Below are positions 858-61,892 of a stretch of DNA of 64,000 nucleotides, piece by piece. The notes beneath the pieces are model-generated. The model saw only the letters and a list, made by a program, of their open reading frames with translations. It was not told where the DNA came from and ran no database searches. The position numbers and the translations under genes were made by a program. Numbering within the stretch: the stretch's first letter is position 1; every line of letters begins with the position of its first letter. This DNA is from Antedon mediterranea (taxonomy: Eukaryota > Echinodermata > Crinoidea > Comatulida > Antedonidae). The stretch lies in the NCBI RefSeq assembly GCF_964355755.1, contig NC_092671.1:39139304-39203303 (forward strand), read 5' to 3'.

Positions 858-3800
858 TCAATAAGCATCAGTTTTTTTCACAGTCTCATCTTCATCTTCT
901 TTTGTCTCATCACCAACTCTCTTTTCAGAATCTTCCTTACTGCTCTTATCATCCTTTTCCTGTTCTTCTTCCCTTGAGCTGGTTTGTTTAGTTGTGTCAT
1001 CATTCATACCATCTTCATCTTGGCAAGGTAATTCTCCAGAAGGACTCAGAACAGGTGGTTTGTCATCATTTTCCAAATCTAAACAAAAAGAAACAATTAT
1101 TTAACTACAAATCAGTATTACATGGGATGTGTAGTTTGTTCTGTTAAAGGTCTGGCTACACTATCAAACTTTATGTGACAAAAAAGTATGATGTGCCCAA
1201 ATTTGGTGGTGATATTAGGGTTAGGGTTAGGGTTGGTGGTGATATGCCAAAATATGGTAGTGATATGACATCATCATGTCCATATATGGGCACATCACAT
1301 GTTTTTGTCACATAAAGTTTGATAGTGTAGACAGAGCTTAAGAAGAGCTTAATCATATTGATATTTTTAATGATAGACTTGGTTATTTTAAGAGGACGAT
1401 TATGTGTTCACTTCTTGAACAGCCTGCATAACCTGTTTGATTAATATAAATTTTAAATCGAAATTGTTTATGGCATGCCGATATATGTTATATATATATA
1501 TATTGTTAATATTATTGTTATACGTTTTTGATGTTGTATTGTTTTATGTTTCAAACCTGTTAGTGGCGGTATTTATCGCTGTTGGTTTTGACTGAATAAA
1601 ATAAAATAAAATTGGTTCAAAAGTTGGCTTTCGTGTCCAAAACAAACTAGATTTAGTAAATATAGATTTATCTAGATATGAATACTATAGAGAGTCTGTT
1701 GTTGACTGAGCGGAGCATGTGAAGGTTACTTACCCGTTTGTGGATCTTTTGTGTCTGCCATTTCAGAACACAAAGCTGGTGGAGGAGTCTCCACTTTAGA
1801 AGGCGTTATTTCCGAACCCTCTTCCATCGGTTCTTGATCTCCATTCTTCTCTGTCTCTTTTGATGCTTCTGGTGAGTTTTTAGAAGCTTCGACAGAACTC
1901 TCAACCGTGGATTCTGATACCAGATCACGATCACGTTCAAGTTCTCCTGTCTCCTCCTCTGTCCTCATGCCAACAATTTTAGTGGTGTCTGCTCCTTCTG
2001 ACGTGCTCTGATCGTTATTGGTGGTTGGTTGAGAAGTTGATGGCTCTGGAGGGAGTTGTGGAGTTGGCTGTGTCACTACAGGTCGCGGATTCATAAGTGG
2101 AAAGATTGTTGGTGGCATTTCAGCATAAATTTCATCCCACTTAATGTCAACCTTCTCTGCACACAACTGAAAGCATAGTAATATTGCTTTAATGTAGAAA
2201 ATAAACACTAGTATTGTAAGGTTTGTAATTCCTAATAAAACATCAACAATTAGGGGAAAATGGCAAAATTTATCAATTGAAGACATTTTTACCTTTTTTA
2301 TTGATTCATGCCATTCACCGCTATTCTCTTTAAATTTGCGTTTCTTTTCTTGGAACTTTTCTTCTATTTGCTGGAGTTCGCCTTCAAGTTTTTTCTAAAC
2401 AAATCAAAAATAGAATGAGAAATTATGAGCAAATATTACTTACACAAAAGATGAGCAAAATTCTGATACTCTGATATTACTAAACTTATTAAACAATATT
2501 GTATACTGTATTATGACCAAATATGGTCACAGCGGAAATTAAATTTGTCAAGAAATCGTAATCTCAAAAGCAAAACACTCTTAAGCTCTGTTCACTATCA
2601 AACTAGTTTGTCCCTAAATATGGTAGTGATATGCCACATATATGACATCATCATGTCTATATATGGGCACATCACATTTTTTTGTCGCATAAAGTTTGAT
2701 AGTGTAGACAGAGCTTAACCCTTAATATCTTGACAATTACCTGATGAAGTATGAGAGACTTGACTTGTTTTTTAAGAATATCCATCCTGTTCTCTGTGAT
2801 CACTGACCTAGGATCGGGAACAGCTATGTCACTGAATATTTCGCCAATGAGTCGATGGTTGCGTTGATAACGTGCTGTTGCTACATGTTTCACAGAAAAA
2901 CCATCGTCTTGATCTAAGATAGGAAAATGAAATTTTAAAATGCAATGTTTTTAATATACAAGTTTTTGTATAGCGCCGAATTCCAACAAATCTTTCATTT
3001 TGCGTTTGTTTAATCCTGTCACTGTCAGTTTGTTTAATCCTGTCACTGTCAGGTTTGTTAATCCTGTCACTGTCAGGTTTGTTAATCCTGTCACTGTCAG
3101 GTTTGTTTAATCCTGTCACTGTCAGGTTTGTTAATCCTGTCACTGTCAGGTTTGTTAATCCTGTCACTGTCAGGTTTGTTAATCCTGTCACTGTCAGGTT
3201 TGTTAATCCTGTCACTGTCAGGTTTTTAATCCTGTCACTGTCAGGTTTGTTAATCCTGTCACTGTCAGGTTTTTAATCCTGTCACTGTCAGGTTTGTTAA
3301 TCCTGTCACTGTCAGGTTTGTTAATCCTGTCACTGTCAGGTTTTTAATCCTGTCACTGTCAGGTTTGTTAATCCTGTCACTGTCAGGTTTGTTAATCCTG
3401 TCACTGTCAGGTTTTTAATCCTGTCACTGTCAGGTTTGTTAATCCTGTCACTGTCAGGTTTGTTAATCCTGTCACTGTCAGGTTTGTTAATCCTGTCACT
3501 GTCAGGTTTGTTAATCCTGTCACTGTCAGGTTTGTTAATCCTGTCACTGTCAGGTTTGTTAATCCTGTCACTGTCAGGTTTGTTAATCCTGTCACTGTCA
3601 GGTTTGTTAATCCTGTCACTGTCAGGTTTGTTAATCCTGTCACTGTCAGGTTTGTTAATCCTGTCACTGTCAGGTTTGTTAATCCTGTCACTGTCAGGTT
3701 TGTTAATCCTGTCACTGTCAGGTTTGTTAATCCTGTCACTGTCAGGTTTGTTAATCCTGTCACTGTCAGGTTTGTTTAATCCTGTCACTGTCAGGTTTGT

Positions 3801-6800
3801 TAATCCTGTCACTGTCAGGTTTGTTAATCCTGTCACTGTCAGGTTTGTTAATCCTGTCACTGTCAGGTTTGTTTAATCCTGTCACTGTCAGGTTTGTTAA
3901 TCCTGTCACTGTCAGGTTTGTTAATCCTGTCACTGTCAGGTTTGTTAATCCTGTCACTGTCAGGTTTGTTAATCCTGTCACTGTCAGGTTTGTTAATCCT
4001 GTCACTGTCAGGTTTGTTAATCCTGTCACTGTCAGGTTTGTTAATCCTGTCACTGTCAGGTTTGTTAATCCTGTCACTGTCAGGTTTGTTAATCCTGTCA
4101 CTGTCAGGTTTGTTAATCCTGTCACTGTCAGGTTTGTTAATCCTGTCACTGTCAGGTTTGTTAATCCTGTCACTGTCAGGTTTGTTAATCCTGTCACTGT
4201 CAGGTTTGTTAATCCTGTCACTGTCAGGTTTGTTAATCCTGTCACTGTCAGTTTGTTTAATCCTGTCACTGTCAGTTTGTTTAATCCTGTCACTGTCAGT
4301 TTGTTTAATCCTGTCACTGTCAGGTTTGTTAATCCTGTCACTGTCAGGTTTGTTAATCCTGTCACTGTCAGGTTTGTTAATCCTGTCACTGTCAGGTTTG
4401 TTAATCCTGTCACTGTCAGGTTTGTTAATCCTGTCACTGTCAGGTTTGTTAATCCTGTCACTGTCAGGTTTGTTAATCCTGTCACTGTCAGTTTGTTAAT
4501 CCTGTCACTGTCAGGTTTGTTAATCCTGTCACTGTCAGTTTGTTTAATCCTGTCACTGTCAGTTTGTTTAATCCTGTCACTGTCAGGTTTGTTTAATCCT
4601 GTCACTGTCAGGTTTGTTAATCCTGTCACTGTCAGGTTTGTTAATCCTGTCACTGTCAGGTTTGTTAATCCTGTCACTGTCAGTTTGTTTAATCCTGTCA
4701 CTGTCAGGTTTGTTAATCCTGTCACTGTCAGGTTTGTTAATCCTGTCACTGTCAGGTTTGTTAATCCTGTCACTGTCAGTTTGTTTAATCCTGTCACTGT
4801 CAGGTTTGTTAATCCTGTCACTGTCAGGTTTGTTAATCCTGTCACTGTCAGTTTGTTTAATCCTGTCACTGTCAGGTTTGTTAATCCTGTCACTGTCAGG
4901 TTTGTTAATCCTGTCACTGTCAGGTTTGTTAATCCTGTCACTGTCAGGTTTGTTAATCCAGTCACTGTCAGGTTTGTTAATCCTGTCACTGTCAGGTTTG
5001 TTAATCCTGTCACTGTCAGGTTTGTTAATCCTGTCACTGTCAGGTTTGTTAATCCTGTCACTGTCAGGTTTGTTAATCCTGTCACTGTCAGTTTGTTTAA
5101 TCCTGTCACTGTCAGGTTTGTTAATCCTGTCACTGTCAGGTTTGTTAATCCTGTCACTGTCAGTTTGTTTAATCCTGTCACTGTCAGGTTTGTTAATCCT
5201 GTCACTGTCAGGTTTGTTAATCCTGTCACTGTCAGGTTTGTTAATCCTGTCACTGTCAGTTTGTTTAATCCTGTCACTGTCAGGTTTGTTAATCCTGTCA
5301 CTGTCAGGTTTGTTAATCCTGTCACTGTCAGGTTTGTTAATCCTGTCACTGTCAGTTTGTTTAATCCTGTCACTGTCAGGTTTGTTAATCCTGTCACTGT
5401 CAGGTTTGTTAATCCTGTCACTGTCAGTTTGTTTAATCCTGTCACTGTCAGGTTTGTTAATCCTGTCACTGTCAGGTTGTTTAATCCTGTCACTGTCAGG
5501 TTTGTTAATCCTGTCACTGTCAGGTTTGTTAATCCTGTCACTGTCAGGTTTGTTAATCCTGTCACTGTCAGTTTGTTTAATCCTGTCACTGTCAGGTTTG
5601 TTAATCCTGTCACTGTCAGGTTTGTTAATCCTGTCACTGTCAGGTTTGTTAATCCTGTCACTGTCAGTTTGTTTAATCCTGTCACTGTCAGGTTTGTTAA
5701 TCCTGTCACTGTCAGGTTTGTTAATCCTGTCACTGTCAGTTTGTTTAATCCTGTCACTGTCAGGTTTGTTAATCCTGTCACTGTCAGGTTTGTTAATCCT
5801 GTCACTGTCAGTTTGTTAATCCTGTCACTGTCAGGTTTGTTAATCCTGTCACTGTCAGTTTGTTTAATCCTGTCACTGTCAGTTTGTTTAATCCTGTCAC
5901 TGTCAGGTTTGTTTAATCCTGTCACTGTCAGGTTTGTTAATCCTGTCACTGTCAGGTTTGTTAATCCTGTCACTGTCAGGTTTGTTAATCCTGTCACTGT
6001 CAGGTTTGTTAATCCTGTCACTGTCAGTTTGTTTAATCCTGTCACTGTCAGGTTTGTTAATCCTGTCACTGTCAGGTTTGTTAATCCTGTCACTGTCAGG
6101 TTTGTTAATCCTGTCACTGTCAGTTTGTTTAATCCTGTCACTGTCAGGTTTGTTAATCCTGTCACTGTCAGGTTTGTTAATCCTGTCACTGTCAGTTTGT
6201 TTAATCCTGTCACTGTCAGTTTGTTTAATCCTGTCACTGTCAGGTTTGTTAATCCTGTCACTGTCAGGTTTGTTAATCCTGTCACTGTCAGGTTTGTTAA
6301 TCCTGTCACTGTCAGGTTTGTTAATCCTGTCACTGTCAGGTTTGTTAATCCTGTCACTGTCAGGTTTGTTAATCCTGTCACTGTCAGGTTTGTTAATCCT
6401 GTCACTGTCAGGTTTGTTAATCCTGTCACTGTCAGGTTTGTTAATCCTGTCACTGTCAGTTTGTTTAATCCTGTCACTGTCAGGTTTGTTAATCCTGTCA
6501 CTGTCAGTTTGTTTAATCCTGTCACTGTCAGGTTTGTTAATCCTTTCACTGTCAGGTTTGTTAATCCTGTCACTGTCAGGTTTGTTAATCCTGTCACTGT
6601 CAGGTTTGTTAATCCTGTCACTGTCAGGTTTGTTAATCCTGTCACTGTCAGGTTTGTTAATCCTGTCACTGTCAGGTTTGTTAATCCTGTCACTGTCAGG
6701 TTTGTTAATCCTGTCACTGTAATGGGTTTTGTTCTGTTTATTTGTATTGTATCAACATGTTTTTAGTTGACGAAATAAATCAAATGATGATAAATGTGAT

Positions 6801-19500: not shown

Positions 19501-22500
19501 TTAACTTTTACAAAAAATTGAAGATTTCAACGATTTTTAATGTTGATTTGTACCCCCTTTTCCTGTAAAATCGTGTGTAATGTAAATGTAAATGGGTGCA
19601 TAATATATATATTACAAAAGGGGGGACCGGGGCCGGCCCGGCCCCCCTAAATCCGCCTCTGGTACTGTTGATGTATAACAGTGTGAATTTGCAAAGAGGA
19701 CAATTGCATTGTGGGTACTAATGGTTAATGGGGAGAAAAAGAAAGGTAGAGCCAACTATTTTATGTGATTATCTACCGATTATTATACCTCTTCTGCTTG
19801 TTGTAGACGTCCTTCTTCAAGCTGTCTCCGAACAGTTTCTAGATCAGTCTCAAGGTTGATAACAACTTTTTCTTGTTCTTGTTCCTTTACTTTCAATCTA
19901 ATGATGATTTCTTCTTGTTCTTTGTGTTCCTAATGTTATAAAAACCACACATTTTTTTGTCACGTAAAGTTTGATAGTGTGGACAGAGCTTAGGTAATTC
20001 AGTGCATACAAATCTAAATAATCAAAAGTGTCATTTACCTTCAGGGTGTCTTCGAATTTCATGACATCAGTGCTGGCTTGGAACCTGATGGCACTTAGCT
20101 GCTCTGTCAGACTTTCTAGTTCACTTTTCAAACTTGTACATTCAGATGTTTTATCTGCAAGTTCGTTACTAACACTTTCAAGTGATGTTTTTGTGTTTGC
20201 ATTCTCTTGACTAAAGAATTCAAGACTATCATGCAAGCCTTTAATTTCGACAGCTTTTTCGTCGATAGTTTTACTGTCTGCAACAGCAGAATCACTCCAC
20301 TTCAACAATGCTTCTTTATTTTCAGTTTTTGCTGTTTCTAAAAGTTGTGTAAGCTCCAATATTTCTGCATTTAATGTATCATTTTTATCTTTTATTTCAT
20401 TTCGCTCTTTTACCAACATTTCTGTTTTCTCCGCTAATTCATTAATTTCTTTTTCTGAATTTTCTTTCAACTCTTTTAGTTCGGACTCAAAAGTAGTTTT
20501 CTCCTTTTCTAATGCCATCATGTCTCCATCCATTTTTTCTTTTTCTTCACTGATGGAAATAAACTGGGCTTGTAACATATCAAACTGTTCTCGAAGAAAG
20601 GCCAATTTATCTTCATGTTCTTTTTGTAACGTCTCTTTGCATATTTCAAACTTGTCTTGATTTCCTGCGGTGTCTTCTTGAACTTGAATGACTTCTTCTA
20701 ATGTCTCTTGGATTTCTCTCGTAGTTGCCGATTCCTTCTCCAGAGACTTCTCCATCGCTTCTAAGTTTTTTTCCAATTCATCTTTCTTTTGAATTAGGGT
20801 TTGAACTTGATCTTTAAGATTAGAAATTGATTGTTCTCTATTAGTTAAAGTCTGCACCAATTCTTGTTTTTCTGCTTCAATTGTACTCAACATTTCTGCA
20901 ATGGCTTTTAGTTCATTTTGAGTTTTTGTCTCAGATTCAGTCTGATCCAGCAGCTCTTTATCCTTCTCTTGAAGATGGCATGAAAGAGTTTCCTCTTTTT
21001 TAACAAGATTATCGCAGTCATTTCTAAGAATGATATTTTCTGTTTGTAACTTTGTCAGTTCCTCTTCTTGAAGACACAACTCTTTCTTCTGAACTTCAAC
21101 TGTACTTTGCAAGTTTGAAATTGCACTTTCCTGAGAATCAACCTTCTTGTTAAATTCTTGAACTTGGTCTAACAGGCGTCCAACTTCTTCAGTTTTGTTT
21201 TTTAGAAGTTTTTCCAAGTGAGAACATTGCGATTTTTCAACAAGGATAGCATTATTACTTGCTTGTAGGTTGTCTTTAAGTGTCTTCTTTTCTAAGACAA
21301 TGTTCTGCAATCGTTCTTCAATATCTTTTGGTTCTTCTCTACCATCTACTCTATCCCTATTATCATCCTCTGACATCCCATCCTCTACATTTGAATCAAT
21401 CTGACTGAAAATTGTTTTTAAATTTAGAAGTTGTTCTTTTAATTCTTTAACTTGGATTTCTGTTTGAATTACTTTGCTGGCAAGATCCTCTTTTGACGCT
21501 TTTAATTCACATCTCTCAGTCGAAAGTGTCTTCTTTTCCTGTTTAACATTTTTCAAATCTTCAGACAAGGAACACATGGTTGTCTCCTTCATAGACAGGG
21601 AACTTTTTGTTTCCTCAAGTTTCATTTCCAATTCTTTTTTAGAGTTTTCCAGGATTTCAACCTTTTCTATTTGTCTTCGACAATTGTATTCTAAATCACT
21701 GTTTTTTGCCTTTAGATTTGATACAGAAGCAGATTCTTCTGATAACCTTTGTTCAAGAAGTTCTACTTTACGAGAAAGTTCTTCTTTTGTGCCTTTTAAA
21801 TTTAAATTTTCTGTTTCTACATCATTAACTCTTGATAAAAGTTCATGCACCTTAGTTGCAGAATCAAAATGGCTGGATACCGTCACATTCTTTTCCTCAA
21901 CCATTCCTTCCATTTTTGATAAAAGTCCAATATTTTTCACTTCAAAATTTGCAAGTTTTGATTCTAAATCTGTGATGTTTTCATTCTTTTTCGATACCAA
22001 CGTATTCAAAGATTCCTGATCTTGTGTCAGGCTGGTCACCTGTAATCTCAGACTACCAATAAGCACGTCCTGTTCTGCAATTTGTGACTGAAATTCAACT
22101 TCACTTTTAGAAAAATATTTCTCACGACTTTCATGCTGTTTGTTTAAACATTCGATCCTGTCACATAAATCTGTTTTAATCTGTTCTGCTTCTTTTAATC
22201 TTGTCTGAAATTCTAAATTAATTTGATTCATTTGTTCACCTTTTTTCTGACATTCCATTTCTGATTTTTCTAGCTTGTACAACGTATCTTGTTTAAATCG
22301 TTCAGCGTCTTCTTGAAACCTGCTCAACCTCTCTTCAGTTTCCAAAGCGAGTTTATGCAAATCTTCATTTTCAGTTTCCATGGATAGGATTTGTTGGCGA
22401 AGCTGTCTGTTTATTTCCTCACATTCTTGAAAATCTTTATGAAGTTGGGAATAATAATCTGCCTTAGAAGAGTCCTCTGGGACACTGGTGCTCATGATCT

Positions 22501-25500
22501 CACTTGTAGCCTAAACAAAATAAAAACAAAATGGTCATGTACTCTATCATGTGTATTTTAGGTACCTTCATATTCTGGTTAAATATAATAATATAATTAA
22601 ACTACTATCCGTTTGATGCAATGTTGCAAACCTATGAGCATGAATATATCAGTACAGTCAAAACAGGCCACCAAGAAATCCAGAATAAATTTAAACTAAA
22701 TTCAAAAGCCCAGTATTCTGTATTCACCAATCACACTTAAGTGAGATATTACCCTTAAATATTAAGTATTTCACTTAACTCAATAAATATTCCCCTTCAA
22801 TTGTATTCATTTAGAAGTGTTTCCCTTAGTGTGAATGGTGAATACCGCCACATAAACATTATTATTTTCTCTAATATTAATATCTCTCATATATTTATAT
22901 TTAGGTTAATTTCGATTGAGAAAACAAACCTGAGAGCTGAGACTGTTCATGCTAGTGGTCCTACTGGGTAGTTGCCACATCTGAGAGCCGTGGCTGAAAG
23001 TCTTTCTGGCAAATGTCGGCCACGCAGCATCAAGGTCATTTCCCGTTGGTGACAAATCAAATTGTACCTCATTCAGATCATAAAAGTCATTTATCAACAA
23101 TGATGACAGTTTTGGATTCATGAGAAGTGATTTCGGTGAGTACCAATCACTAGAAATATAAAAAAAGTACTTAAAATTAATTTAAAAAAACTTAAATTTA
23201 CTCAATATAATTATTATATATACATATATTGTTTATTTTATTTCTTAATTTCATACACATCCAACAGTGAGTAACTCGCCATTTACAGAATGGATAAACT
23301 ATTTAATAATTTATCGTGCTTATAAACTAAGTCTCAGGCTTAGTGAGTGGAGTTGAAAGAGTCGTGAATTACAACCCTGGCACTAGGTTAGGATTGAACC
23401 CTGGACTTTGCGATTGGAAGCCAAGCATGTTAACCACCTATCTACAGCTTCACTATATAATAATAATAATAATAGTCTGTTCTTATATAGCGCATAGTAC
23501 AGTAGATAATGGAGGTTTATGATATAGATCTTTAAATATTATACCTTGTAACTTTTCTCTTGGATAAACATTGTTGAAGTGTGTCAGCTAGTCGTTGATG
23601 TACCAGGCAGTAACGAATAAAAGCACGCCCTCTCCCAAGAGATGTCCGAACCTGTTACAGAAATGGAGAAAGTTAAAATATCAAAATAGCAGCCTGTATA
23701 AACAAAAGCCTACCATTGATGTAGCCACAAAAAAGTGGTGTGGTTTTTGCAAGAAATGTTAACAATCTTTGTTCAAGCCAATGAGTTGTCAAAGATAGGC
23801 CCTCAGTGAAAAAGTGGTTGAAACCTTACGGACCATACTGGTGGCTACAGCCTGCATATAGTTATCTTAATGGAAATTGTAGATAGTACCTCTGACATTG
23901 CTTTAACAAACTTGATGCCATCATTCAAGCCTTTCGTCTTGCTTAGACATTCAACATAATAATCCCAGTATTCTTTTTTGGATCCCATTAACGAATATCG
24001 AACTGAAAAATAATAAGTAATCATCAATAAACTAAACGCAAATAATATCCTCACAATAAAAAAAAATGTGAAGACATGGTCAAAGTGAATAACTATTTAT
24101 ACAAAATAATTGTAAAAATTAATTTTTCAGGGAGACAGTATATCTTTAATATTTCACAAAACCACAACACAACAATGAGATAATTAACATAAAGTAATAT
24201 ATTAGTAATTAATAATTCTGCTTTTATCATAGTTTATTATGGGCTCCGTGGAGACCATCAAAAATTGCACAGGGACGGTATTTCACATCTTCTGTGCGGG
24301 GTATTGGGATAAGTTTTCAACTAGCAATAATCACGCCTCGGATAAACCTCATTGGCTATGATATCGCCTCTGCGCAAAGATGCCTAACAACCTGAAGAAA
24401 GTGTAATATGTACTGCCGAACCATTCTCTGCACATTGGTGTCATAAAACATACCAACAACATATTCTTATTGTCTCATATAATTGGTTATTTAATATCAT
24501 TATTATTTTAAATTCAATGAAAATCTTAACTAACCAACGTTATCTTATCCTAAATCAATATTTTATATTACTATTATTTTAATGAAAACTTAATTTTATC
24601 TACTTATGAATATTCAATAGGAGTAGTTTGTCAATAGAGGGCGCTATGACAATTTACTGCAAATTATCAGCTTTTTGTTATTCCTAACTAATTCAAGGAC
24701 AATATTAAATATACTATGTTATAGTTAAATTAAAACAGCTGGTGTTAGGTTCAAATCCTGTAGCAGTCTTTGGACTTTCAACTGGAGAAGTACACAAACC
24801 AATATTTTAAACTGTTATTAAATTAAAACTCACTTTTAAATTCGCCCTGCATAAGATACTCCAAACGTGAACAAAACTTTTGTAGCGTGACCGAGTCATC
24901 CGTAATTGGATATCTATTTTCATCAAACTCATTCTTTAACTCTTTAACACAACCTGTGAATTTATAGTATATAATATTCATTTTATTGTATTTTTAAGAT
25001 AACAACAAAAAAATATTCAGTATATTAAATTATCATTATAACTAAAAATAATGTTGCTGATTTATTAAATAAATTAATCAAATTTAGTTAAATTATAACA
25101 CTGGTCTTAAATTTAATATTTTCAATATTTAAGCAACAAAAGTTATAAATATAAGCTAATAATAAGCTAAAGCTTTGTCCACACTATCAAACTTAAGCTC
25201 TGTCCACACTATCAAACTTAAGCTCTGTCCACACTATCAAACTTAAGCTCTGTCCACACTATCAAACTTAAGCTCTGTCCACACTATCAAACTTAAGCTC
25301 TGTCCACACTATCAAACTTAAGCTCTGTCCACACTATCAAACTTAAGCTCTGTCCACACTATCAAACTTAAGCTCTGTCTACACTATCAAACTTAAGCTC
25401 TGTCCACACTATCAAACTTAAGCTCTGTCCACACTATCAAACTTAAGCTCTGTCTACACTATCAAACTTAAGCTCTGTCCACACTATCAAACTTAAGCTC

Positions 25501-25934
25501 TGTCTACACTATCAAACTTAAGCTCTGTCTACACTATCAAACTTAAGCTCTGTCTACACTATCAAACTTAAGCTCTGTCTACACTATCAAACTTAAGCTC
25601 TGTCTACACTATCAAACTTAAGCTCTGTCTACACTATCAAACTTAAGCTCTGTCTACACTACCAAACTTAAGCTCTGTCTATACTATCAAACTTAAGCTC
25701 TGTCTACACTATCAAACTTTATGTGACACAAAAAAATGTGCCTATAATATGGACATGATGATGTCATATCACTATCGTATTTGGGCACTTTTTTGTCAAA
25801 CTAGCTTAAGAAAAAACTTTATTCAGTAGTAAATAAAAATTCTATTAAATGTGCAAATTAAATAATTATAAACTAGATTCCATACTTTGTAAATCCTGCA
25901 CTACTTTTGGTGCTTGGTGGTCCTGTGCGGCCAT
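10585..25934 (-). CDS. FYCO1: FYCO1, RUN-coiled coil-FYVE-GOLD autophagosome/late endosome transport adaptor
   Basis: Seventeen coding exons, minus: 25886-25934, 24834-24953, 23890-24002, 23545-23651, 22930-23149, 20039-22510, 19789-19929, 18668-18739, 18445-18492, 18209-18327, 17701-17788, 17306-17430, 16740-16985, 15790-15963, 14990-15146, 14269-14432, 10585-10645. They total 4,476 nt (1,491 residues plus TAA; human about 1,478). RUN domain residues about 40-170 ([30 protein letters not shown]). Coiled coil about 205-1175, mostly one 2,472-nt exon. FYVE about 1176-1240 with WLED, RRHHCR and RVCELC all intact, so PI3P binding is expected. A LIR core, FSII followed by acidic residues, sits at 1336-1339 (15867-15878). 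GOLD domain about 1367-1491 ([28 protein letters not shown]). In vertebrates FYCO1 joins LC3, PI3P and Rab7 on vesicles to kinesin. The last exon lies behind a 3.6-kb intron; its short coding part ([13 protein letters not shown]) completes the GOLD fold. Some introns carry mobile elements within 10-30 bp of splice sites. Confidence 0.94.
10727..11335 (-). mobile_element. LINE 3' end, 5'-truncated (family L1x), minus orientation
   Basis: Read on the minus strand this holds the C-terminal end of a non-LTR retrotransposon ORF: an upstream frame-shifted piece (11142-11330) and an 87-codon piece (10903-11166) with [20 protein letters not shown] and the end [13 protein letters not shown], followed by a 3' UTR with an (AT)n run and a T/A-rich tail. 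It lies in the last FYCO1 intron in the same sense as the gene. The ORF is broken by a frameshift. Confidence 0.78.
11340..14268. other. Remainder of the last FYCO1 intron
   Basis: Beyond the elements listed, it contains a short 'gtttcgg' rich piece at 11990-12055 (gcgtttcggcct, gagacgtttcggccc) and a hairpin at about 14022-14037 (gtcgcgtggacgcgac) followed by gtcggtcggtcggtc, both probably old transposon pieces. No exon with a supported splice frame was seen. Confidence 0.5.
11600..11810. mobile_element. Probable degraded MITE family C piece
   Basis: Starts agtattgtcacccaaaaaca, like the inner end of family C, and finishes at ggtcaaagtaaatatcttat. Both ends are weak. Confidence 0.4.
14575..14885. 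mobile_element. Unclassified transposon remnant in a FYCO1 intron
   Basis: After a run of 'ttttattta' words, 14590-14885 has less AT-rich sequence with cagtggcgtaacacagaggg and cctcaggacactgctcaggggcc, similar in style to ends of cut-and-paste elements. Class not determined; the 91-codon ORF over it is not conserved-looking. Confidence 0.35.
15172..15275 (+). mobile_element. SINE family S1 body fragment
   Basis: Shares aactcttttaactcc, gacttagtttataagca, gataaattatt and aatagtttatc with the copies at 1-150 and 23250-23455. It begins about 25 bp from the acceptor of FYCO1 exon 15 (exon edge 15146). Confidence 0.65.
15505..15566 (+). mobile_element. SINE/LINE-type 3' tail with (TTA)n
   Basis: The pattern gcgccttgagcac, then gcgctataaatc and repeated tta resembles the tails at 23458-23505 and 58998-59075 (both reversed). 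Only the tail of the element can be seen. Confidence 0.5.
16003..16310 (+). mobile_element. tRNA-derived SINE (family S2), copy 1
   Basis: The head tggccgagtggttaagac matches a class II tRNA A box and ggttcgaggctc a B box. The body has ctcggataaggaccataaac and ccagtgtacaca, caccccgg-like gggttacccc, and an A/T tail with tta repeats. Copy 2 is at 48040. It is in FYCO1 intron 13. Confidence 0.75.
17062..17180. mobile_element. MITE family A, copy A3 (right end lost)
   Basis: Left end aagctttgtctacactgtc; two internal units (aaatatggtagtgatatg); ends at tatatgggcacat without the right terminus. FYCO1 intron. Confidence 0.85.
17529..17691. mobile_element. MITE family A, copy A4, next to a splice donor
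   Basis: Both termini are present (agctctgtcactacactatc and gatagtgtagacagagctta). The right end stops 9 bp from the FYCO1 exon edge at 17701; the intron in the gene sense therefore begins gtaagttac and runs straight into the element. Confidence 0.88.
17952..18149. mobile_element. MITE family G, copy 1
   Basis: Ends tacagataactctcccaata and tattgggaaagttgaatgta with inner gaccagac-type arms. A better preserved copy is at 50220. TA flanks fit a pogo/mariner-like source. Confidence 0.7.
18781..19725. repeat. 62-bp tandem repeat interrupted by element H
   Basis: Units with gaggacaattgcattgtggg and gatgtataacagtgtgaat occur twice before 18878 and again after 19662. The element H insertion sits at gtact within the second unit. 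Lies in the FYCO1 intron 18740-19788. Confidence 0.82.
18879..19661. mobile_element. DNA transposon family H, non-autonomous, about 780 bp
   Basis: Termini CAGGGGCGAATCTAGGATTT and the reverse of CAGAGGCGGATTTAGG form imperfect inverted repeats; gtact on both sides (18874-18878, 19662-19666) is a likely 5-bp target duplication. The inside has no long ORF. Termini of this type are common in hAT-like elements, but 5 bp is not the hAT length, so the class is open. Confidence 0.7.
19945..19992. mobile_element. MITE family A, copy A5 (right half only)
   Basis: cacatttttttgtcacgtaa followed by agtttgatagtgtggacaga, with nothing of the left half. It lies between FYCO1 exons 6 and 7. Confidence 0.8.
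23250..23455 (-). mobile_element. tRNA-derived SINE (family S1), best copy
   Basis: Read on the minus strand: tRNA-like head with an A-box-like gtagataggtggttaac and a B box ggttcaatcc, then the S1 body to ggcgagttactcactgttgg. A tail with tta repeats and atagcgc lies beside it at 23458-23505. FYCO1 intron. Confidence 0.7.
24079..24152. mobile_element. MITE family C fragment
   Basis: catggtcaaagtgaataact and gacagtatatctttaa are one end of family C. Confidence 0.55.
25170..25719. repeat. 22 exact 25-bp tandem units made from the family A terminus
   Basis: Each unit is AAGCTCTGTCYACACTATC followed by AAACTT, with no indel across 22 units (25170 + 25n). Units 1-8 are tgtcc, units 14-22 are tgtct, and 9-13 are mixed; single changes mark units 1, 20 and 21. 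The array runs directly into the rest of a family A element (25720-25809). It lies in FYCO1 intron 1. Confidence 0.95.
25720..25809. mobile_element. MITE family A, copy A6, body beside the terminus array
   Basis: Continues from the last array unit as tatgtgacacaaaaaaatg, then gacatgatgatgtcatatc and ttttttgtcaaactagc. The right terminus is reduced to cttaag: the core gatagtgtagacagag is missing. Confidence 0.88.
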
Positions 25935-33988: not shown

Positions 33989-34132
33989 TAAAGCTCTGTC
34001 TACACTATCCAACTTTATGTGGCAACAAAATGTGATGTTCCCATATATGGACATGTTGATTTCATATAACTACCATATTTTGGAACATCACACTTTTTTG
34101 TCAAACTAGTTTAATAGTGTAAACAGAGCGTA
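33989..34132. mobile_element. MITE family A, copy A9, in the CNTNAP-like 3' UTR
   Basis: taaagctctgtctacactat at the left and aatagtgtaaacagagcgta at the right. It starts 48 bp past the stop codon of the gene, so it is very likely transcribed in the 3' UTR. Confidence 0.85.
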
Positions 34133-34179: not shown

Positions 34180-37100
34180 CTATAAGTACCATTCCTTGCG
34201 ATCTGATTGGTGGTTTGGGTCAGACGCCCTCACAGCAGCGTCGGCGTCCTCGGCTTCTGCTACCCCTTTATCTTCATTCGTGTGATATTCTCCACCGTGT
34301 CGGTTCATGTAACGACCAATGATAAAAAGCATTACAAACAGCGCGATGAATAATACTAATATAACAACTAAAATACAAAAAAAAATATAATTAATTATAA
34401 TATAATGTAATAATATTACATAATAGTTTTAAATCATAACTAAAGCTCTGTCTACACTATCAAACTAGTTTGACAAAAAAAAGCGTGATATGCTTAAATA
34501 TGCTCATATAGGGCAGTGATATGACATCATCATGTCCATATATGGGCACATCACATTTTTTTGTCACACAAAGTTTGATAATGTAGATAAGTTTTCACAG
34601 TAAACAATGTGATGTTCTTGAATTACCCTATTTCATGTAGTTAGGTTCAAAAACCTATACAAACATATACAGTACTTCTCTAAAGCTCTGTCTACACTAT
34701 CAAACTTTATGTGACAAAAAAATATGATGTGTCCATATATGGACATGATGATCACATATCACTACCATATAGTGTAGAGAGCGCTTAGGTTTAGTACAAA
34801 TATATAGAAAATGAAGTAGATGTTTAAAACATGAATATAAATCTCAAGACAGTTTTGTTTAACATAGGCTCTAGAAATATCTGGGTTGAGAATAGGACTA
34901 TACTTGAATCAAGCATGGGACTATACTTGAATCAAGCATGGGACTATACTTGAATCAAGCATGGGACTATACTTGAATCAAGCATGGGACTATACTTGAA
35001 TCAAGCATGGGACTATACTTGAATCAAGCATGGGACTATACTTGAATCAAGCATGGGACTATACTTGAATCAAGCATGGACTATACTTGAATCAAGCATG
35101 GGACTATACTTGAATCAAGCATGGGACTATACTTGAATCAAGCATGGGACTATACTTGAATCAAGCATGGGACTATACTTGAATCAAGCATGGGACTATA
35201 CTTGAATCAAGCATGGGACTATACTTGAATCAAGCATGGGACTATACTTGAATAAATCACAGAATAACTTACATGCTATAGATGCTTTATCTCCAGTTGT
35301 TTTGATTGCAGCTACTGAAGGCTGAGCTGGTTCTTGTGTACTGTACATCTGGTAAGTAACATCAGGGTATGGTAATCTAGTAGTTGGGGGCAGTGTTGCT
35401 CCTTCAACTCCGCAACTTGACTCAACCACCACACCTCGCATGGTTATTTCAGGTGGTTGGTTACCGGGGTCGAACATCTTCAGAGGATAGAAGTTGTTGA
35501 AACGAACCCTAGAGATGCAGCCTATGAATTTATCAATTCCATCTGTAAGGAAAAATGTGAATTCAACCATAACGGCAACAAGAAAACAAATATTGAAAAT
35601 AGAAAATTATGACTTGTCATGTAATAAGACTTTGTTTATTATGTAGAGCATCTTGTGTATGTGTTTGTCTTGTGAACAGGATTACCAACTTTAAGAAGGA
35701 TAGTGAATGAATTCGCTTATGGTTATCCTTGGCAATTTGCCTAAATATATAAACAAACAAATAAATGAGTGAACTAACCTGGGCTGCCAATAGAGATCAT
35801 AGATGGACTTCTGAATGTGGTGTCTGTGAGTGTGAAGGTCTGCATCTGTGGTGACGTTTCATCAATCTGCAATACAATATATGAAAATAAATATAATAAA
35901 CATAATGTATGGGTCTTGGATCCATGTTTTCTTTTACTGACAATTTTCTCGGACTTAATAATTCTGATCAAGTGACCTAATACCACTTCTCTTCTTCCTT
36001 AATACTTTTATTTTATTTATTTATTTATTTATAAACTTATTTTACATGGATGACATTTTCATTAAAAATAATGTTCTTACAAATGGTCCATGATTAAAGA
36101 AATGCATGCATAATACTCAGTGAATAGTCATAAGAATACAAAACATTTTGTTGTTGTTTTAGATTATAGAAAGACATACAAGAACAATTACATTTTAAAT
36201 ACAGATACAGAATTAATAATAATAAACAGTTAAGTAAGTACATCGCAATTACACAGGTTCTCAAGTTGAGGTTTCTATTTAAATACATCATTTTTGTTGT
36301 GTTTTGTATTTATATTTAAACGCATTGTAAGAGGTCGCTTCTTGCAATGATACTTACCATCATTGAAAATTCATTGCCTTCTCGTGTTACCATGACTACG
36401 TGGTGGTTACCATCTGCGTAACTTCCGACATCTTCCGTAATCTCCCATGAATCAACGCCAGAAACGAAGCTGAACTGAATTGCACCTAGGGAAGGAAATC
36501 AGATAATAAATCAGAATTAGAAATAGAATATAATGAAGGGACTTTTAAATGCAGTAGTATTTCTTAAATTAGACAAATCCGGTTCTCTAATCTTTCTTTT
36601 CATTCAGGAATGGAATCTGAAATATTTGTTTTTTCTCTTTTTGCTATTGATATTAATAACTTCTTATTACCTTATTGTTATTTTAAGGGTCTTGGCTTAA
36701 AAGCTTGCTTACTTTGAGTTCCCTTTTACTGTACATAACTATTTCAGGACATATTTGTACATATCCTTAGTTTTATAGAATAAATTGATTTTGATTGATT
36801 ATGACTTGTTTATCAGTACAATACACAATCTAAATATATTTGTTGTAATCACACGTAACAGGGTAATTTGGTCCATCAGTAAAAACAATGGCATCTTTTA
36901 ATATTCCTCAAGTTTTGGTAATCCAGAAATCAAAATTTGAATGTTAACATTTACATTGATTTCAAGATATTAGCAAGTTAAAATACCTTCTGAATTGAGT
37001 TTGATCTCCATGTAACTTTCGCCTGTACTTGAATCAACACGAAGGATACGCCCCTCTGTGTTCTGTGTGGTTGAGAAGCCAGCCTGGATGACGTCCTTCT

Positions 37101-43100: not shown

Positions 43101-46100
43101 ACTATTTGTAACCTAAACCTCTATCAAACTTTATGACAAAAAAAAATGTGATGTGCCCATATATGGACATGATGATGTCATAAGCACTATCATATTTGGG
43201 TATATTACTACCATATTTGGGCACATTACACCTTTTTTTTGTCAAACTAGAATATAAATCAAACTAGTTTGATAGTGTAGACAGAGCTTTAGTTTCAACA
43301 ACGCTTTTGAGTATTTAACTGACCATCGCTGTATATTGGAATACCGCTGGCTTCATCACCAATTTGGATCTTGAGAACACCCTCTTGAATGAGAACTTGG
43401 AATGCTTCTCCTGTAAACAACTCATTGTACATCAGCACTCCTCTTGTTTCATATGTCCTGAACTTAAAACTCACACTGAAAAAGAACAATAAATACCAAA
43501 AGATGGAATGTACCATTATCTGATAGGGGTGTTTCATAAATGTTATATATTCAAGTTGTAGCTCTCTTCTCGGAGAACAGGCCAATTTCGGTTTAGCCAG
43601 GTAAGCTAGGCACAAAATGATGCCAATGAACTATTTTTTGATAATACAAACTCCTTGGTATTATCATTATGTTTTTGATAAATAATATAAACAGGAAAAT
43701 GTATATTAAGAATTTCAATTATCAAAATCCTGTAATATACTTACGTGAGGCCGTCATCGTTGTCCAGAACCAGTCTTGACTCATGAGTTGGGAACGACGC
43801 TGGTACCATGACCTCGCTGGTACATGAGAAGGTCTGTCCGTTATGCACTTTAAGACGTGGGTTACCTGGCTCCATTTCAACTGTGCTAATCACATCAAAT
43901 TCGCTATTGAAATTCATATTTTGTAAACAGCCCTTAAAGTTCAGGTCGGGCATGCCATCCTCTCGGTAGATCCCAGGTCTGTAAAAGTCTGGTGTACCGC
44001 CGAATGTTATCTAAATTTAGATTTTTGAGTTTTATTTTAATTTATTTTACAAATTGCTAGCAATACATTTCATATTCAGCAGTAGATTATATTTATATGT
44101 TATCTAAATTAGGATTGAGTTTTATTTTCAATTTATTTTACAAATTGCTGGCAATATTATTAACTTCCCAAACACTGTAAATCCATATTGTTATATTATA
44201 TAGGAACAGATTCTGTTAGTTCATGTATGAAAAAACATTGCCTGTCCGACACGAAGGTCAACAGGGTCCTTTAATAATGGTTATACCATTGCTTACGGTC
44301 TTCAGCTATATCTCTTGACTAGATACAGTTGCTAGCAATACATTTTACTTTTTCAGTGCTAGTTTATCTATGTCTGTTTAGTTGTTTTAATTTGTTATTT
44401 ATAAAACTTGCATAAAAAAAAACTCAAACCTCTCTATCTAGGTCAATCCGTGAGAAAATTCCATTACTATGACCATGGATGTGAATGGAGTCGAGATCAA
44501 CCTGAATGGCCCGTCTTTTGCGGTAATACTTTACGCGATGCCATTGATTATCATCAAGTAGTCCACCTATTAATAAAGTGGTATCACCCGCTTCGTCAGT
44601 CGTACTTCCTAAAAGATGAAAATGTTACAGGAATGACTTTGTTTACAATTTTAAGCATGATGAACGTAATGGTGTTGTTTCTAAAGCTCTGTCTACACTA
44701 TCGAACCAGTTTGACAAAAAAAAATGTGATGTGCCCATATAAGATAAGATAAGATAACTTTTATTGATCCTCAACAAGGAAATTCATTGCTCGTCATAAT
44801 AACCAAGAAAACACAATAAAAACAAATATAGCATAAAACCATTCATATAAAAACATCTAAAAAATTACAAGATAAAATTATCTTCTTGACTTCCTGTTGT
44901 ACTGGATGATACCGGAGGGAATAAAGGATTTAGCAAATCGATTTGTTTTCACACTGAGGAGCCTCAATCTACCACTTGGATTAAGTTGGTCTATGATCAC
45001 TTTGTGGAGAGGATGAGAGGCATCCGACTCAATGCGTTCGAAATCTTTCTGGAGGTGTTCTAGGTGCACATCGGTAAAGGAAGGCAGTTCCAGACCAATC
45101 ATTTTATTTTATGGACATGATGATGTCATATCACTACCATATTTAGGAATATTACTACCATATTTGGGCACATCACACTTTTTTTTGTCAAACTGGTTCG
45201 ATATTGTAGACAGAGCTTTATATGAAGTTCAGGTTACAAAAGCAATAATTATTATTAGAACTAAAGAAAATGATAATTATCTGATAGCTTATTGGAATTA
45301 ATGTTTATTTCTCTTGACAATAAACTAACTGCAACGACCTGCTTCAGTTATATCTACATATATTTTGTGAAGGATAAAGTTAAATTTTAATAGAATATCA
45401 GCGCAAAATAATTCATAAATTCAGTCGTTTTCTCCTGACAATAGTTGATTTATACATAAATATTGTGAAATACAATTTACATGCATTTCTCTTGTCTTAT
45501 TTATAGACATCATATAATGAAACTAACGAGCCTGAAATAATGAGCTGCTGATATTGTGTGATGTTTGTAAGATGACATAATGACGCAATTCAAATGAATG
45601 TGGTATGTACCTATGTGAAGCATTTTATATAGTAAAACATGTAAGCATGACAGGTATGAAATACCAAAGATGACTAGATACAGTGTTACATTTGTTAGTG
45701 TATATATGATGTTAAGATGACTAGATACAGTGTTACATTTGTTAGTGTATATATATGATGTTAAGATGACTAGATACAGTGTTACATTTGTTGGTATATA
45801 TATGATGTTAAGATGACTAGATACAGTGTTACATTTGTTGGTATTATGATGTTAAGATGACTAGATACAGTGTTACATTTGTTAGTGTATATATATGATG
45901 TTAAGATGACTAGATACAGTGTTACATTTGTTAGTGTATATATATGATGTTAAGATGACTAGATACAGTGTTACATTTGTTGGTATATATATGATGTTAA
46001 GATGACTAGATACAGTGTTACATTTGTTGGTGTATATATATGATGTTAAGATGACTAGATACAGTGTTACATTTGTTGGTATTATGATGTTAAGATGACT

Positions 46101-49100
46101 AGATACAGTGTTACATTTGTTAGTGTATATATATGATGTTAAGATGACTAGATACAGTGTTACATTTGTTGGTATATATATATGATGTTGAAAATGTGTT
46201 TTGTTGTGTTTGTTGCTTTCTTGTAGATGCTTTAATTGATTTGTGAAATGAACTTTTTAATTTTTTTTAATTTTTGTGCTCTGTTTTAGGTTAACCCACT
46301 AGCATAGGTGTTTAGCACCACATTCACATTTATAAATATTTAAAGATTTATTGACAAAATTATATGTATTAATTGTTGAAATTAATAAACAACAACCATT
46401 TAAACAGGAATGGGGAGGTCGGCAAAAATAGGAATTGGAAACTGGGTGGTTACCATAAACTGGAATATGGGGTCGGTCTAAACAGAAATAGAGAGAGGTT
46501 GGCTAAATATACATGAATATCTTATAAAATGTTCAATTTATTATTGAGCCAGCAAGCATGATCTATTTATTATTATTATTTAAATAACTAAACAGCATTT
46601 GTGATAGAAAATGTTAAAAATTGGCTGAGCACTATGGGATAAATAAAACCTACCTAGGTTGAGATTAACCATGAGTTGTCCTCTGACAAGCTGGAAGACG
46701 AGGTAGTCGCTCTGGGTGCCATACCCAGCCATGATCACACCGTTCGCTTCAGTGGTTCGGAAGCGAAACGTAACATGCCATTCGGTCTTGTCTATACGAT
46801 ATCTTCCTTTCTCCACGTTGTACGATATATAATTTGATCCATCGAATGATGCAACACTTGGATCTATAAATATTAAATTAGGTGGTGGGATTACAATATA
46901 CTATAGCTTGGGATTATACAGTAACTCTATGAAATTAAACCAATCTTCAATATAAACATATTCTCCAATCTCATTTAAAGATATATTGTCCCACTAAAAA
47001 AAAAAAGCTTTTGTCAAATTTGTTGGTGAATATGCCATTTTAATGTCATGTAATAGTTATTCACTTTGACCAAAAAACTGGATCGAAAAAAAAAATTATT
47101 TAACTGAAAAAATGTAATTTAAAGCAACAAATACTTAAATTGGCTGTGTTTTAGGTTAGGTTAGGTTTCGTTTGTCTTTTTATAAGTTTTTTTTCAGAAT
47201 TGAATAACTTTATTAAACTGCAAAATAGCCTAATTAAAGTCTGATTTTATTAATCTTTATTTTTCATGTTTTTGGGGGATAATACATCTTTAAAAAATGA
47301 ATGATGTATTGAAAAATTCAACACAAAAGAGGAAGAACTGAAAAAAATATAAAATGTCTTGCTTTATATTTGATACTGATATTTATTAAATCTGCTAAAA
47401 AAAGACACTATTCCCTACACAATGCATTCTTAATAGACAGTTACAGATCATATTACTTTCTCTAAAAATAGCTACCAGCAGTGAAATTGTTTATGTCATT
47501 AAACAAAAAATTTTTAAATAATGTGAATAAAAATGTTTAAATATGTTACTTTACCAGCTAAACATCCATAAAATTCAACACATTACTCTCACTACAAATA
47601 GCTAACACAGTGAAATTGTTTATGTCATAAAAACAAACAAAAAATATTAAAAATTAAATAAAAATTGTAAAAAGTGTTACTATACCAGCTAAACATCCAT
47701 AAAATTCAACACGCATTGAGAAACGGTTCTTCTTTAATATTGGATTAAGTCGTACATATCGAGCAAAAATGTCTGGATTTAATTTGTTCCTGTTCACGCT
47801 GTCACTATCAGAATTACCATGAAATTTCTATAAAGATAAACAAGTTTATCATTATTTGAAAGTTCAAGAAATGAGAGGAGAAAAAAAAGGGATTGACAAT
47901 GCTGACAAGAATGGTAATAAAAATGGTGATGAAAATTCCAATGATGCTGTTTAATTAATAAGCTTTCACAAAAATGTCAAATACTTTTTCATTACAAGCT
48001 TCATATACCAAGAGAACGCTTAGTCTGTCAAAATAGTTATAAAAAAGTGAGTGAGTGGCCAAGCAGTTAAGACAGTGGAACCGTAATCCAGCCACAACAT
48101 CAGCAAGGGTTCGAGGCTCACTTGCTCTGGCGGTAGAACAAGTTTTCTCGGATAAGGACTATAAACCGTAGGTCCAGTGTACACACATTGTTCCTGTTCA
48201 CTTTAAAAAACCTAGTACATCTTTTCTTTTTTCAAGACGTGTCTGTAGGGGTTACCCCCGAACTAGTTCACACACAGCCACTGTGTCGTGGATAGATGAG
48301 ACAGCGCCTTAAAATGGCTGCACTGACATGACGTGACCTTAGGGGAAAAGCATGTAGTTAAAAAGTATAACGTCAGAGTCCACATCGCCATGAGCAATGA
48401 TCCATTCATTGGAATTTGGTGCTTTACAAGAACTCATATTACTTATATTCATTTTTCATAATTTTGTTTTAGCTGTCATAAGGGGAGAGTTTGATAGAGT
48501 AGAGAGAGCTTAATACTCATCCTGGATCTGCCTCTGTAGAGTAAATTAATAGTAGTACAGTACTGCAAGTGCTTTCTTACGTGTACGCCTTAGATATGTA
48601 TTATGTATATTACATACTACAGTATACTGTATCTTGTTATTAATAGCACAATATAATGGATTTTCAATAAACGTTCAAGGTTGAAAACATCAACCGATAT
48701 TTAAATTGCTAAGACAATTTGCGAAAGATAATTGACTTCACGAAAAGCTGACAGTTAATTTTGCCGAGAATGAATGCAATCCTCTAAGTCTGTAATGACA
48801 TTTGGTTTACTGAATGGACCATTTACCTCCAAGGCATCAGAAACTAGGCCTAAGCTATTCAACTGTTACTTGTAGTTGTAGTTTCAAAGGGTAATACTTT
48901 ATTGGCACTTTCACTTTCCAATGATTTGTTAATGTATAAAGCTCTGTCCACACTACTATCACATTAGTCCAAGACAAAAAAGGTGTGATGTGCCCAAATA
49001 TGGTAGTGATATGCTTAAATATGGTAGTGATATGACATCAGCATGTCCATATATGGGCACATCACATTTTTTTACATAAAGTTTGATAGTGTAGACAAAG

Positions 49101-60424: not shown

Positions 60425-60687
60425 TGTGAAGTCTACACTATCAAACTGTATGTGAAAAACAAATGTGTGCCCATATATGGACATGAACATCATCACTACC
60501 ATATTTGGGTACATCACTACCATATTTGGGTATATCACTACCATATTTGGGTAGATCACTACCATATTTGGGTATATCACTACCATATTTGGGTACATCA
60601 CTACCATATTTGGGTATATCACTACCATATTTGGGTATATCACTACCATATTTGGGCACATCACTACCATATTTGGGCATATCACAG
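60425..60687. mobile_element. MITE family A, copy A24, with nine 21-bp units
   Basis: Left end gtctacactatcaaactgta; then nine units of atcactaccatatttgggta type (60497-60685), period exactly 21. Right terminus missing. The 'PKYGSD' and 'YHIW' ORFs are read from this array. Confidence 0.92.

Positions 60688-61061: not shown

Positions 61062-61892
<831 letters not shown>

Follow-up and report, generated by a model that had tools for sequence, protein, structure and literature searches.

A 64,000-nucleotide stretch of the crinoid Antedon mediterranea (assembly GCF_964355755.1, contig NC_092671.1, positions 39,139,304 to 39,203,303 of the forward strand), analysed in full and referred to here as the window, contains the predicted gene FYCO1 on the minus strand together with copies of a family of miniature inverted-repeat transposable elements (MITEs). 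The left terminus of one of these copies, designated A6, consists of a tandem array of 22 units built on the terminal inverted repeat (TIR) of the family. The head-to-tail units are of a size that fits the definition of a minisatellite (about 10-100 bp), and the array is probably a minisatellite that was born in place from this one MITE end. Its components are as follows (positions are those of the window).

25168..25170, no strand: left target-site duplication TAA
25171..25806, plus strand: MITE copy A6, with an expanded left and a truncated right terminus
25170..25719, plus strand: 22 tandem 25-bp units AAGCTCTGTCYACACTATCAAACTT, each the TIR plus 2-3 bp
25720..25802, plus strand: single-copy MITE body (TATGTGACACAAAAAAATGTGCC...), right boundary set by eye
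25803..25806, plus strand: remnant of the right (B) TIR, 4 bp, with 19 bp missing
25807..25809, no strand: right target-site duplication TAA

Tandem Repeats Finder (TRF), applied to the 64-kb window, returned 25170-25719 as a repeat of period 25 with 22.0 copies, 98% matches and 0% indels, in agreement with an earlier note on this DNA that had described 22 indel-free units of 25 bp. The 25-mer has 51 matches in the window at up to 3 mismatches, of which 22 are the array, and none in 100 shuffles; among the termini of the MITE family in the window, this search found tandem repetition at one only, the left terminus of A6. Copy A6 spans 25171-25806 with TAA on either side, and the 19 bp absent from its right terminus bear out the loss of the terminus core described previously. 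The array lies inside the TAA duplications of the element, and the proposed conversion of a MITE terminus into a tandem array also stands. Two refinements of the earlier description are that the TIR proper measures 22-23 bp, and that the element ends at 25806; because the TIR proper is of this length, the array unit corresponds to the TIR plus 2-3 bp.

The units are of two types that differ by C or T at TIR position 10, the 11th base of the 25-mer, and the state across the 22 units reads CCCCCCCCTCCTCTTTTTTTTT. The 11 C and 11 T units form 6 runs (runs test, p 0.0073), with C-type units in the outer and T-type units in the inner part of the array, and a mixed zone between (units 7-12) in which CCT occurs twice consecutively. 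Singleton variants number three, one each in units 1, 20 and 21. The CCT doublet in the mixed zone, together with the C/T zoning, is consistent with growth in multi-unit blocks, the interpretation that the earlier note had already given to the zoned pattern.

The MITE family

The TIR of the family is AGCTCTGTCTACACTATCAAAC, and behind this common 22-23 bp sequence two ends can be distinguished, A (CAAACTTTATGTGAC) and B (CAAACTAGTTTGAC). Exact TIR cores number 12,924 in the 354-Mb genome, and the elements are MITEs in being short, with TIRs and no apparent gene, and present in many copies. Non-array terminus pairs in the window are spaced 83-191 bp apart, and the consensus of the outward flank, from 38 termini, is CTWA. 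In 9 of 23 non-array pairs from the window and the other loci the two flanks are the same TWA, in 4 they read TAA..TTA, and the remaining 10 fit neither pattern; the units of a whole-element array (L079, see below) supply 5 of these 10 and, by its last unit, 1 of the 9. Pairs with TWA on both sides thus read either identically (9) or TAA..TTA (4), and never TTA..TAA among the 23. Judging from these flanking sequences, the TWA duplications would fit PIF/Harbinger-type (Tourist-like) insertion, and a 2-bp TA duplication would fit as well, since 4 of the 13 TWA-flanked pairs read TAA..TTA.

Matches to DDE_Tnp_4 (Harbinger-type) scored in the genome number 150, many of them stop-free, and the TIR, at up to 7 substitutions, was absent from about 2 kb on either side of the 4 of these 150 loci that were inspected. 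Two single elements of the family each fold into one long hairpin (z -7.40 and -7.63), and both hairpins have unpaired bases at most about 6 bp from the inner edge of the TIR. Exact patterns had 0 matches in bacterial, archaeal and viral sequence collections, as expected. The following copies in the window have single termini.

1148..1338, plus strand: family copy, TAA/TAA, both ends of A type
33992..34130, plus strand: family copy, TAA/TAA, one hairpin, z -7.63
61241..61380, plus strand: family copy, TAA..TTA, one hairpin, z -7.40

A second tandem array derived from the MITE family is found at 60492-60685 of the window, where a 21-bp core is repeated 9.2 times in a MITE with a decayed end (60425).

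Tandem termini across the genome

The search of the genome for further arrays of the terminus, which the earlier note had suggested, was positive. The 354-Mb genome has no fewer than 26 loci at which at least three termini stand in tandem, the number read here with the window included (25 arrays compared jointly, plus L048; loci and contigs are designated here by L and C numbers, respectively). The earlier view that the locus is unusual finds no support within its genome, given these 26 loci, several with host flank in the unit, and an abundance of other minisatellites, and a single event peculiar to FYCO1 was rejected on the genome-wide matches. The arrays have 3 to 39 units, with periods of 25 to 92 bp, most commonly 25-26 and 47-51 bp. 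Junctions between two termini number 264 genome-wide with spacers of 1-30 bp, and 168 with spacers of 31-60 bp, some of which skip a short-period unit. The former were covered completely for C1, C2 and C3 to 38.5 Mb, and the latter up to 4.4 Mb of C4. Five more loci (L061, L065-L068) were obtained through exit patterns, and a B-end pattern showed further arrays on C6 and C9, outside the 26. Not counted as arrays were L059, L060 and L064, each with two termini and a spacer that is not flank-periodic and therefore taken as neighbours, and L043, a single MITE.

The exact unit junction of the window array occurs elsewhere only at C1:38509859-38510054 (8 times), at C1:38732985 and at two one-mismatch sites. 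The 19 spacers that were compared have no common word above 12 bp, the words of 11-12 bp being element interior. Spacers this unrelated suggest that the arrays were born separately and did not spread; by sequence comparison, the arrays are apparently many independent births and not copies of one mobile array. With 3-39 units of mostly locus-specific sequence, the arrays do not make up a long satellite of one family, and the locus-specific units of the arrays read also differ from what defines foldback elements.

Variation at the position that distinguishes the two unit types in the window recurs elsewhere. Among the 25 arrays, TIR position 10 (T/C) is mixed within 5 (window array, L039, L040, L045 and L046) and position 9 (C/T) within 3 (L049, L053 and L094), with all other positions mixed in at most 2. 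Outside arrays, 1 of 54 termini has C at position 10 and 5 of 54 have T at position 9, up to 12 of these 54 termini coming from the L079 whole-element array; by eye, C at position 10 is also seen in 4 of about 48 listed TIR cores outside two arrays. Either C-type termini form arrays more often, or mutations arise at this site as an array grows. Recurrent C/T variation at positions 9-10 in independent arrays could also result from error-prone synthesis at a single pause site.

Composition of the units

The repeated unit is approximately the TIR alone in the window, L039, L041, L042, L050 and L061, and extends well inside the element in L047, L053, L058 and L062. At 18 loci, the single-copy locus was reconstructed as flank, first terminus and body, and the tandem duplication was predicted from it. 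Seven loci have a spacer of host flank, predicted with 0 mismatches in L049, L052, L055, L065 and L067, with 1 in L045 and with 2 in L058. Short spacers of 6-7 bp, a weak test, were predicted exactly in the window, L039, L041, L044 and L068 and with 1 mismatch in L061, and the spacer of L053, which is taken from the element interior, also with 1 mismatch. The prediction for L050 (0 mismatches) was left out because one unit was missed in the computation. The success of predictions from flank and terminus shows that several arrays are in-place tandem duplications across the border between element and host. Such loci can thus reveal how arrays begin, as the earlier note had surmised, the unit having been rebuilt from flank, terminus and body at several of them.

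Several arrays have a structure of their own. L054 and L057 are TIR arrays without an adjoining MITE body, possibly through loss of the parent element. In L040, with about 30 units, the outer end is mostly TTAATGTCTG rather than TTAAGCTCTG, so that the exact element end is seemingly unneeded for growth. The period-92 array L094/L095 (C1:1406562-1410627) has a spacer that opens with an inverted TIR remnant, and looks as if the MITE body had been deleted, leaving a TIR-TIR palindrome that was then amplified; a junction resembling it is found at C11:1834045.

Breakpoints and microhomology

For a fixed period, random duplication spreads the inner break evenly over the slack. Compared to this null, the inner break falls at most 5 bp past CAAAC in 10 of the 15 A-end arrays with a spacer of 20 bp or more, where 2.75 are expected (p 4e-5). 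The same position is found in 6 of 8 arrays of a strict set (p 9e-4), in 6 of 9 when only arrays from the fully listed part of C1-C3 are considered (p 1e-3), and in 10 of 18 when the B-end arrays L048, L054 and L062 are added (p 3e-4). Breakpoint values were entered by hand; for L047, L056 and L063 they derive from alignments that were gapped or made by eye, and the inner offset of L046, L051, L057 and L066 was measured against the usual body of the family.

In 7 of 15 arrays, the outer break lies no more than 1 bp from where the element ends; the null used here, uniform over 0-50 bp, is crude. These 15 are the window array, L039, L041, L042, L044, L045, L049, L052, L053, L055, L058, L061, L065, L067 and L068, with L042 judged by eye and L044 and L068 having two units each; L040, L046, L047, L050, L051, L056, L057, L063, L066, L094 and the B ends fall outside this set.

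Microhomology at the junction amounts to 3 bp in L041, 2 in L049, 4 in L052, 6 in L055, 2 in L058, 5 in L065 and 3 in L067, with a combined Fisher p of 0.003 over 8 indel-free long-spacer loci. The junction of L063 shares 10 bp (AACTTTATGT), as seen by eye. The window data fit cuts at TA|AAGC, the element end, and after CAAACTT, which yield a 25-bp unit with no microhomology.

Minisatellite background and controls

Minisatellites are frequent in this genome irrespective of the MITE. A random 80 kb contained 8 arrays of at least 3 copies, 6 of at least 5 and 3 of at least 9, and the window contained 11, 8 and 5, respectively. The random sample consisted of the first 20 of 80 drawn positions, each shortened from 10 to 4 kb; it covers only contigs C1-C11, and the lengths of C6-C9 and C11 were assumed in the draw. 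A 24-bp array of about 155 copies at 3004-6720 of the window does not visibly resemble the MITE terminus; together with the arrays at 34895-35253 and 45667-46189, it marks a region rich in minisatellites. In the random sample (L079:1960-3140), an entire MITE is joined to a spacer of about 48 bp, and the two together stand in about six tandem copies of period 208.

As a control, a 19-mer from the interior of the element, with 4,663 exact copies in the genome, was found in tandem at 9 loci (11 junctions) for spacers of 1-31 bp only. This interior 19-mer never exceeds 3 exact tandem copies, compared with up to 39 units in the TIR arrays.

The FYCO1 setting

Two minus-strand pieces of a RUN domain, joined by hand, match the FYCO1 RUN structure 7bqi (E 5.7e-22); the second piece alone gives E 6e-4 and 20.3 bits with Pfam RUN, just under the 22-bit cut-off. 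This predicted protein sequence identifies the minus-strand gene as FYCO1. The open reading frames (ORFs) concerned are as follows.

24823..24993, minus strand: exon-like ORF with the first piece of the FYCO1 RUN query
22906..23181, minus strand: ORF containing the second FYCO1 RUN-domain piece
19898..22510, minus strand: long ORF, coiled-coil-like (weak matches to coiled-coil families), assigned to FYCO1 by position

The array lies on the 5' side of the exon-like stretch 24823-24993, at a distance of about 180 bp. The earlier note had placed it in a FYCO1 intron; the identity of the gene holds through the match to 7bqi, and the intron is likely, with a flanking exon located on one side only. 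The array lies in non-coding FYCO1 DNA, and no sign of selection for a function was seen.

Origin of the arrays

We consider it probable, with considerable room for doubt, that the window array was generated when template switching took place at the TIR edges, and that ordinary expansion followed. The duplication step and its breakpoints are seen at the loci named above, and the trigger is proposed. Replication or break repair would stall at the TIR edges, possibly because the long hairpin of the MITE is unpaired near the inner edge, because transposase cuts at the outer edge, or both. The break would be made by a nuclease or by transposase, or else a fork stalled at the hairpin would provide the start. 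A new strand that has copied flank and TIR may then slip back to a short match and copy both again. The tandem units show that the duplicated stretch has repeatedly started at the outer end of the element, or else in host DNA some 10-50 bp away, crossed the TIR and most often halted near its inner edge (CAAAC|T). The first dimer would subsequently expand by slippage or unequal exchange in multi-unit blocks, and such growth would give rise to C/T zoning.

Several observations weigh against this explanation. Of the 18 inner breaks, 8 lie more than 5 bp inside (3 at 7-8 bp and 5 at 10-52 bp), and B-end arrays break at +7 or deeper, one B-end pattern having itself required +7. The search patterns required the whole TIR within the unit, so that breaks inside the TIR were invisible and the 0-5 bp peak could be the visible side of a wider one. 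The window, L045 and L053 show no microhomology, and L039, L044, L061 and L068 show 1 bp. Ungapped prediction of the unit fails in L046 (8 mismatches), L056 (9) and L063 (14); L056 and L063 have indels, and the flank was recovered there by gapped extension. About half of the L046 spacer is unexplained, and the present left flank explains the spacers of L046, L051, L054 and L057 partly or not at all. The two hairpin folds carry further unpaired patches elsewhere. As for numbers, a random model predicts about 20 TIR-bearing arrays of at least 5 copies genome-wide (about 7-43, by hand arithmetic), and for C1-C3, which make up roughly one third both of the genome and of its 12,924 cores, about 7 arrays are expected vs 11 seen, with no clear excess. 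The per-copy tandem rate of the interior 19-mer also about equals that of the TIR (about 11 loci on C1-C3 for spacers of 1-30 bp). With per-copy rates this similar, the TIR is set apart by array length and breakpoints, not by the number of births. No enrichment of the TIR as a seed emerged: expected and observed counts are alike, with a wide error from the 80-kb sample.

These counts are of the same order, as would be expected if the TIR were a passenger, that is, if minisatellites arise everywhere, some of the 12,924 cores are caught by chance and the breakpoints are meaningless. The frequency of minisatellites in the random 80 kb and in the window favours such an account, as does L079, in which a whole MITE with its spacer is itself present in about six tandem copies. 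We regard it as rather unlikely, however, in view of the skew of inner breakpoints (p 1e-3 to 4e-5, depending on the subset), the outer break at the terminus in 7 of 15 arrays, and the interior 19-mer, which stays at 3 exact copies or fewer. A version of template switching in which transposase is the trigger is less likely than not: excision by transposase would leave a break, repair from the sister would copy flank and TIR and abort at the TIR edge, and re-invasion upstream or rejoining to the cut end would double the terminus, with repeated cutting driving growth. The probability of this version overlaps with that of template switching as set out above. Transposase would cut where the outer break lies in those 7 of 15 arrays (at most 1 bp from the element end), short microhomology is present at several junctions, and the 150 DDE_Tnp_4 matches include many that are stop-free. 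Nevertheless, the TIR was not found at the 4 of 150 transposase loci inspected, L040 reaches about 30 units despite an outer end mostly changed to TTAATGTCTG, and arrays unrelated to the MITE grow long too.

It is improbable that the array travels with the MITE in the manner of a foldback element, the copies in the genome being descended from one expanded element. The window array does lie inside the TAA duplications of its element, several arrays have a common period of 25-26, and the spacers of L046, L051 and L057 are unlike, or only partly like, their present left flank. Yet the 19 compared spacers differ between loci, in seven loci the spacer comes from the flank itself, and the exact window junction is rare elsewhere (two places on C1 and two one-mismatch sites); among the arrays compared, no two loci combined an identical spacer with different target duplications. 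An assembly artefact is more improbable still, indeed hardly credible, given that 25 other loci differ in period, spacer and variant pattern, and given the C/T zoning inside the window array. Self-insertion of an element end into the TTA immediately inward of the TIR was rejected: it predicts a CAAACTTTAAGC junction and a period of 26, the period in the window being 25, and is also unable to yield flank spacers. The CAAACTTTAAGC junction with period 26 is seen in L039 and L068.

Returning to template switching at the TIR edges, it is tempting to speculate that the termini of this MITE family are built-in fragile sites, at whose hairpin edges (or transposase cuts) tandem duplications with captured host DNA are reproducibly initiated, a generalisation that we advance with marked hesitation. 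If true, the family would be a generator of new locus-specific minisatellites. The growth of an array usually erases how a tandem repeat began. Here, flank, terminus and body still adjoin the array, which allows the single-copy ancestor to be reconstructed at several loci, and with many apparently independent births at one terminus, breakpoint position and microhomology become countable. The first step of satellite birth, a long-standing question, is thereby made testable within one genome.

Comparison with known systems

Elements of this picture are found in several published systems. In Drosophila virilis, the TIR-220 repeats of the foldback element Tetris are tandem repeats derived from the TIR of a non-autonomous DNA transposon that show satellite-like growth (PMC4079207). 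The present arrays resemble them as growing arrays of TIR-derived tandem repeats. The repeats of Tetris, of about 220 bp, belong to long TIRs, and one repeat family was amplified (PMC4079207), whereas here the TIR measures 22-23 bp, single copies are usual, and the arrays were seemingly born apart, several with host flank. Xstir and Xmix of Xenopus likewise combine MITE, array and composites within one genome (reviewed in PMC12628747 and PMC9659126); these share a common MITE-derived repeat, compared with locus-specific spacers here, of host DNA in seven loci. Variable arrays within a MITE are also known from miDNA4, a Tc1/mariner MITE of Xenopus, for which microhomology has been invoked to account for changes in copy number (PMC12628747). 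The miDNA4 satellite is internal and thought to have been captured (PMC12628747), while here the terminus itself is in the unit. The coral CMITE elements are MITEs in tandem for which replication slippage has been proposed; their arrays consist of whole elements, not termini (PMC2872659). L079 belongs to this kind of array.

The gap filling of Pack-TIR elements (FoSTeST) similarly joins TIR elements and template switching at short microhomology (1-36 bp, median 2 bp), with other genomic DNA entering the element and breakpoints toward the interior (PMC8277862). Unlike in Pack-TIR elements, the duplication here is local and in tandem, with breakpoints near the TIR edges. In Galileo and Foldback elements, repetitive TIRs are a family trait. 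The internal repetition of the TIRs in these Drosophila elements (PMC3573991) is a likeness to copy A6; in contrast to them, the family has a single tandem terminus in the window. Our literature search found no report of locus-specific minisatellites of flank plus TIR, which is not proof of absence. What distinguishes the arrays of A. mediterranea from the published systems is that many apparently independent births have taken place at one short terminus, several of them with locus-specific host DNA.

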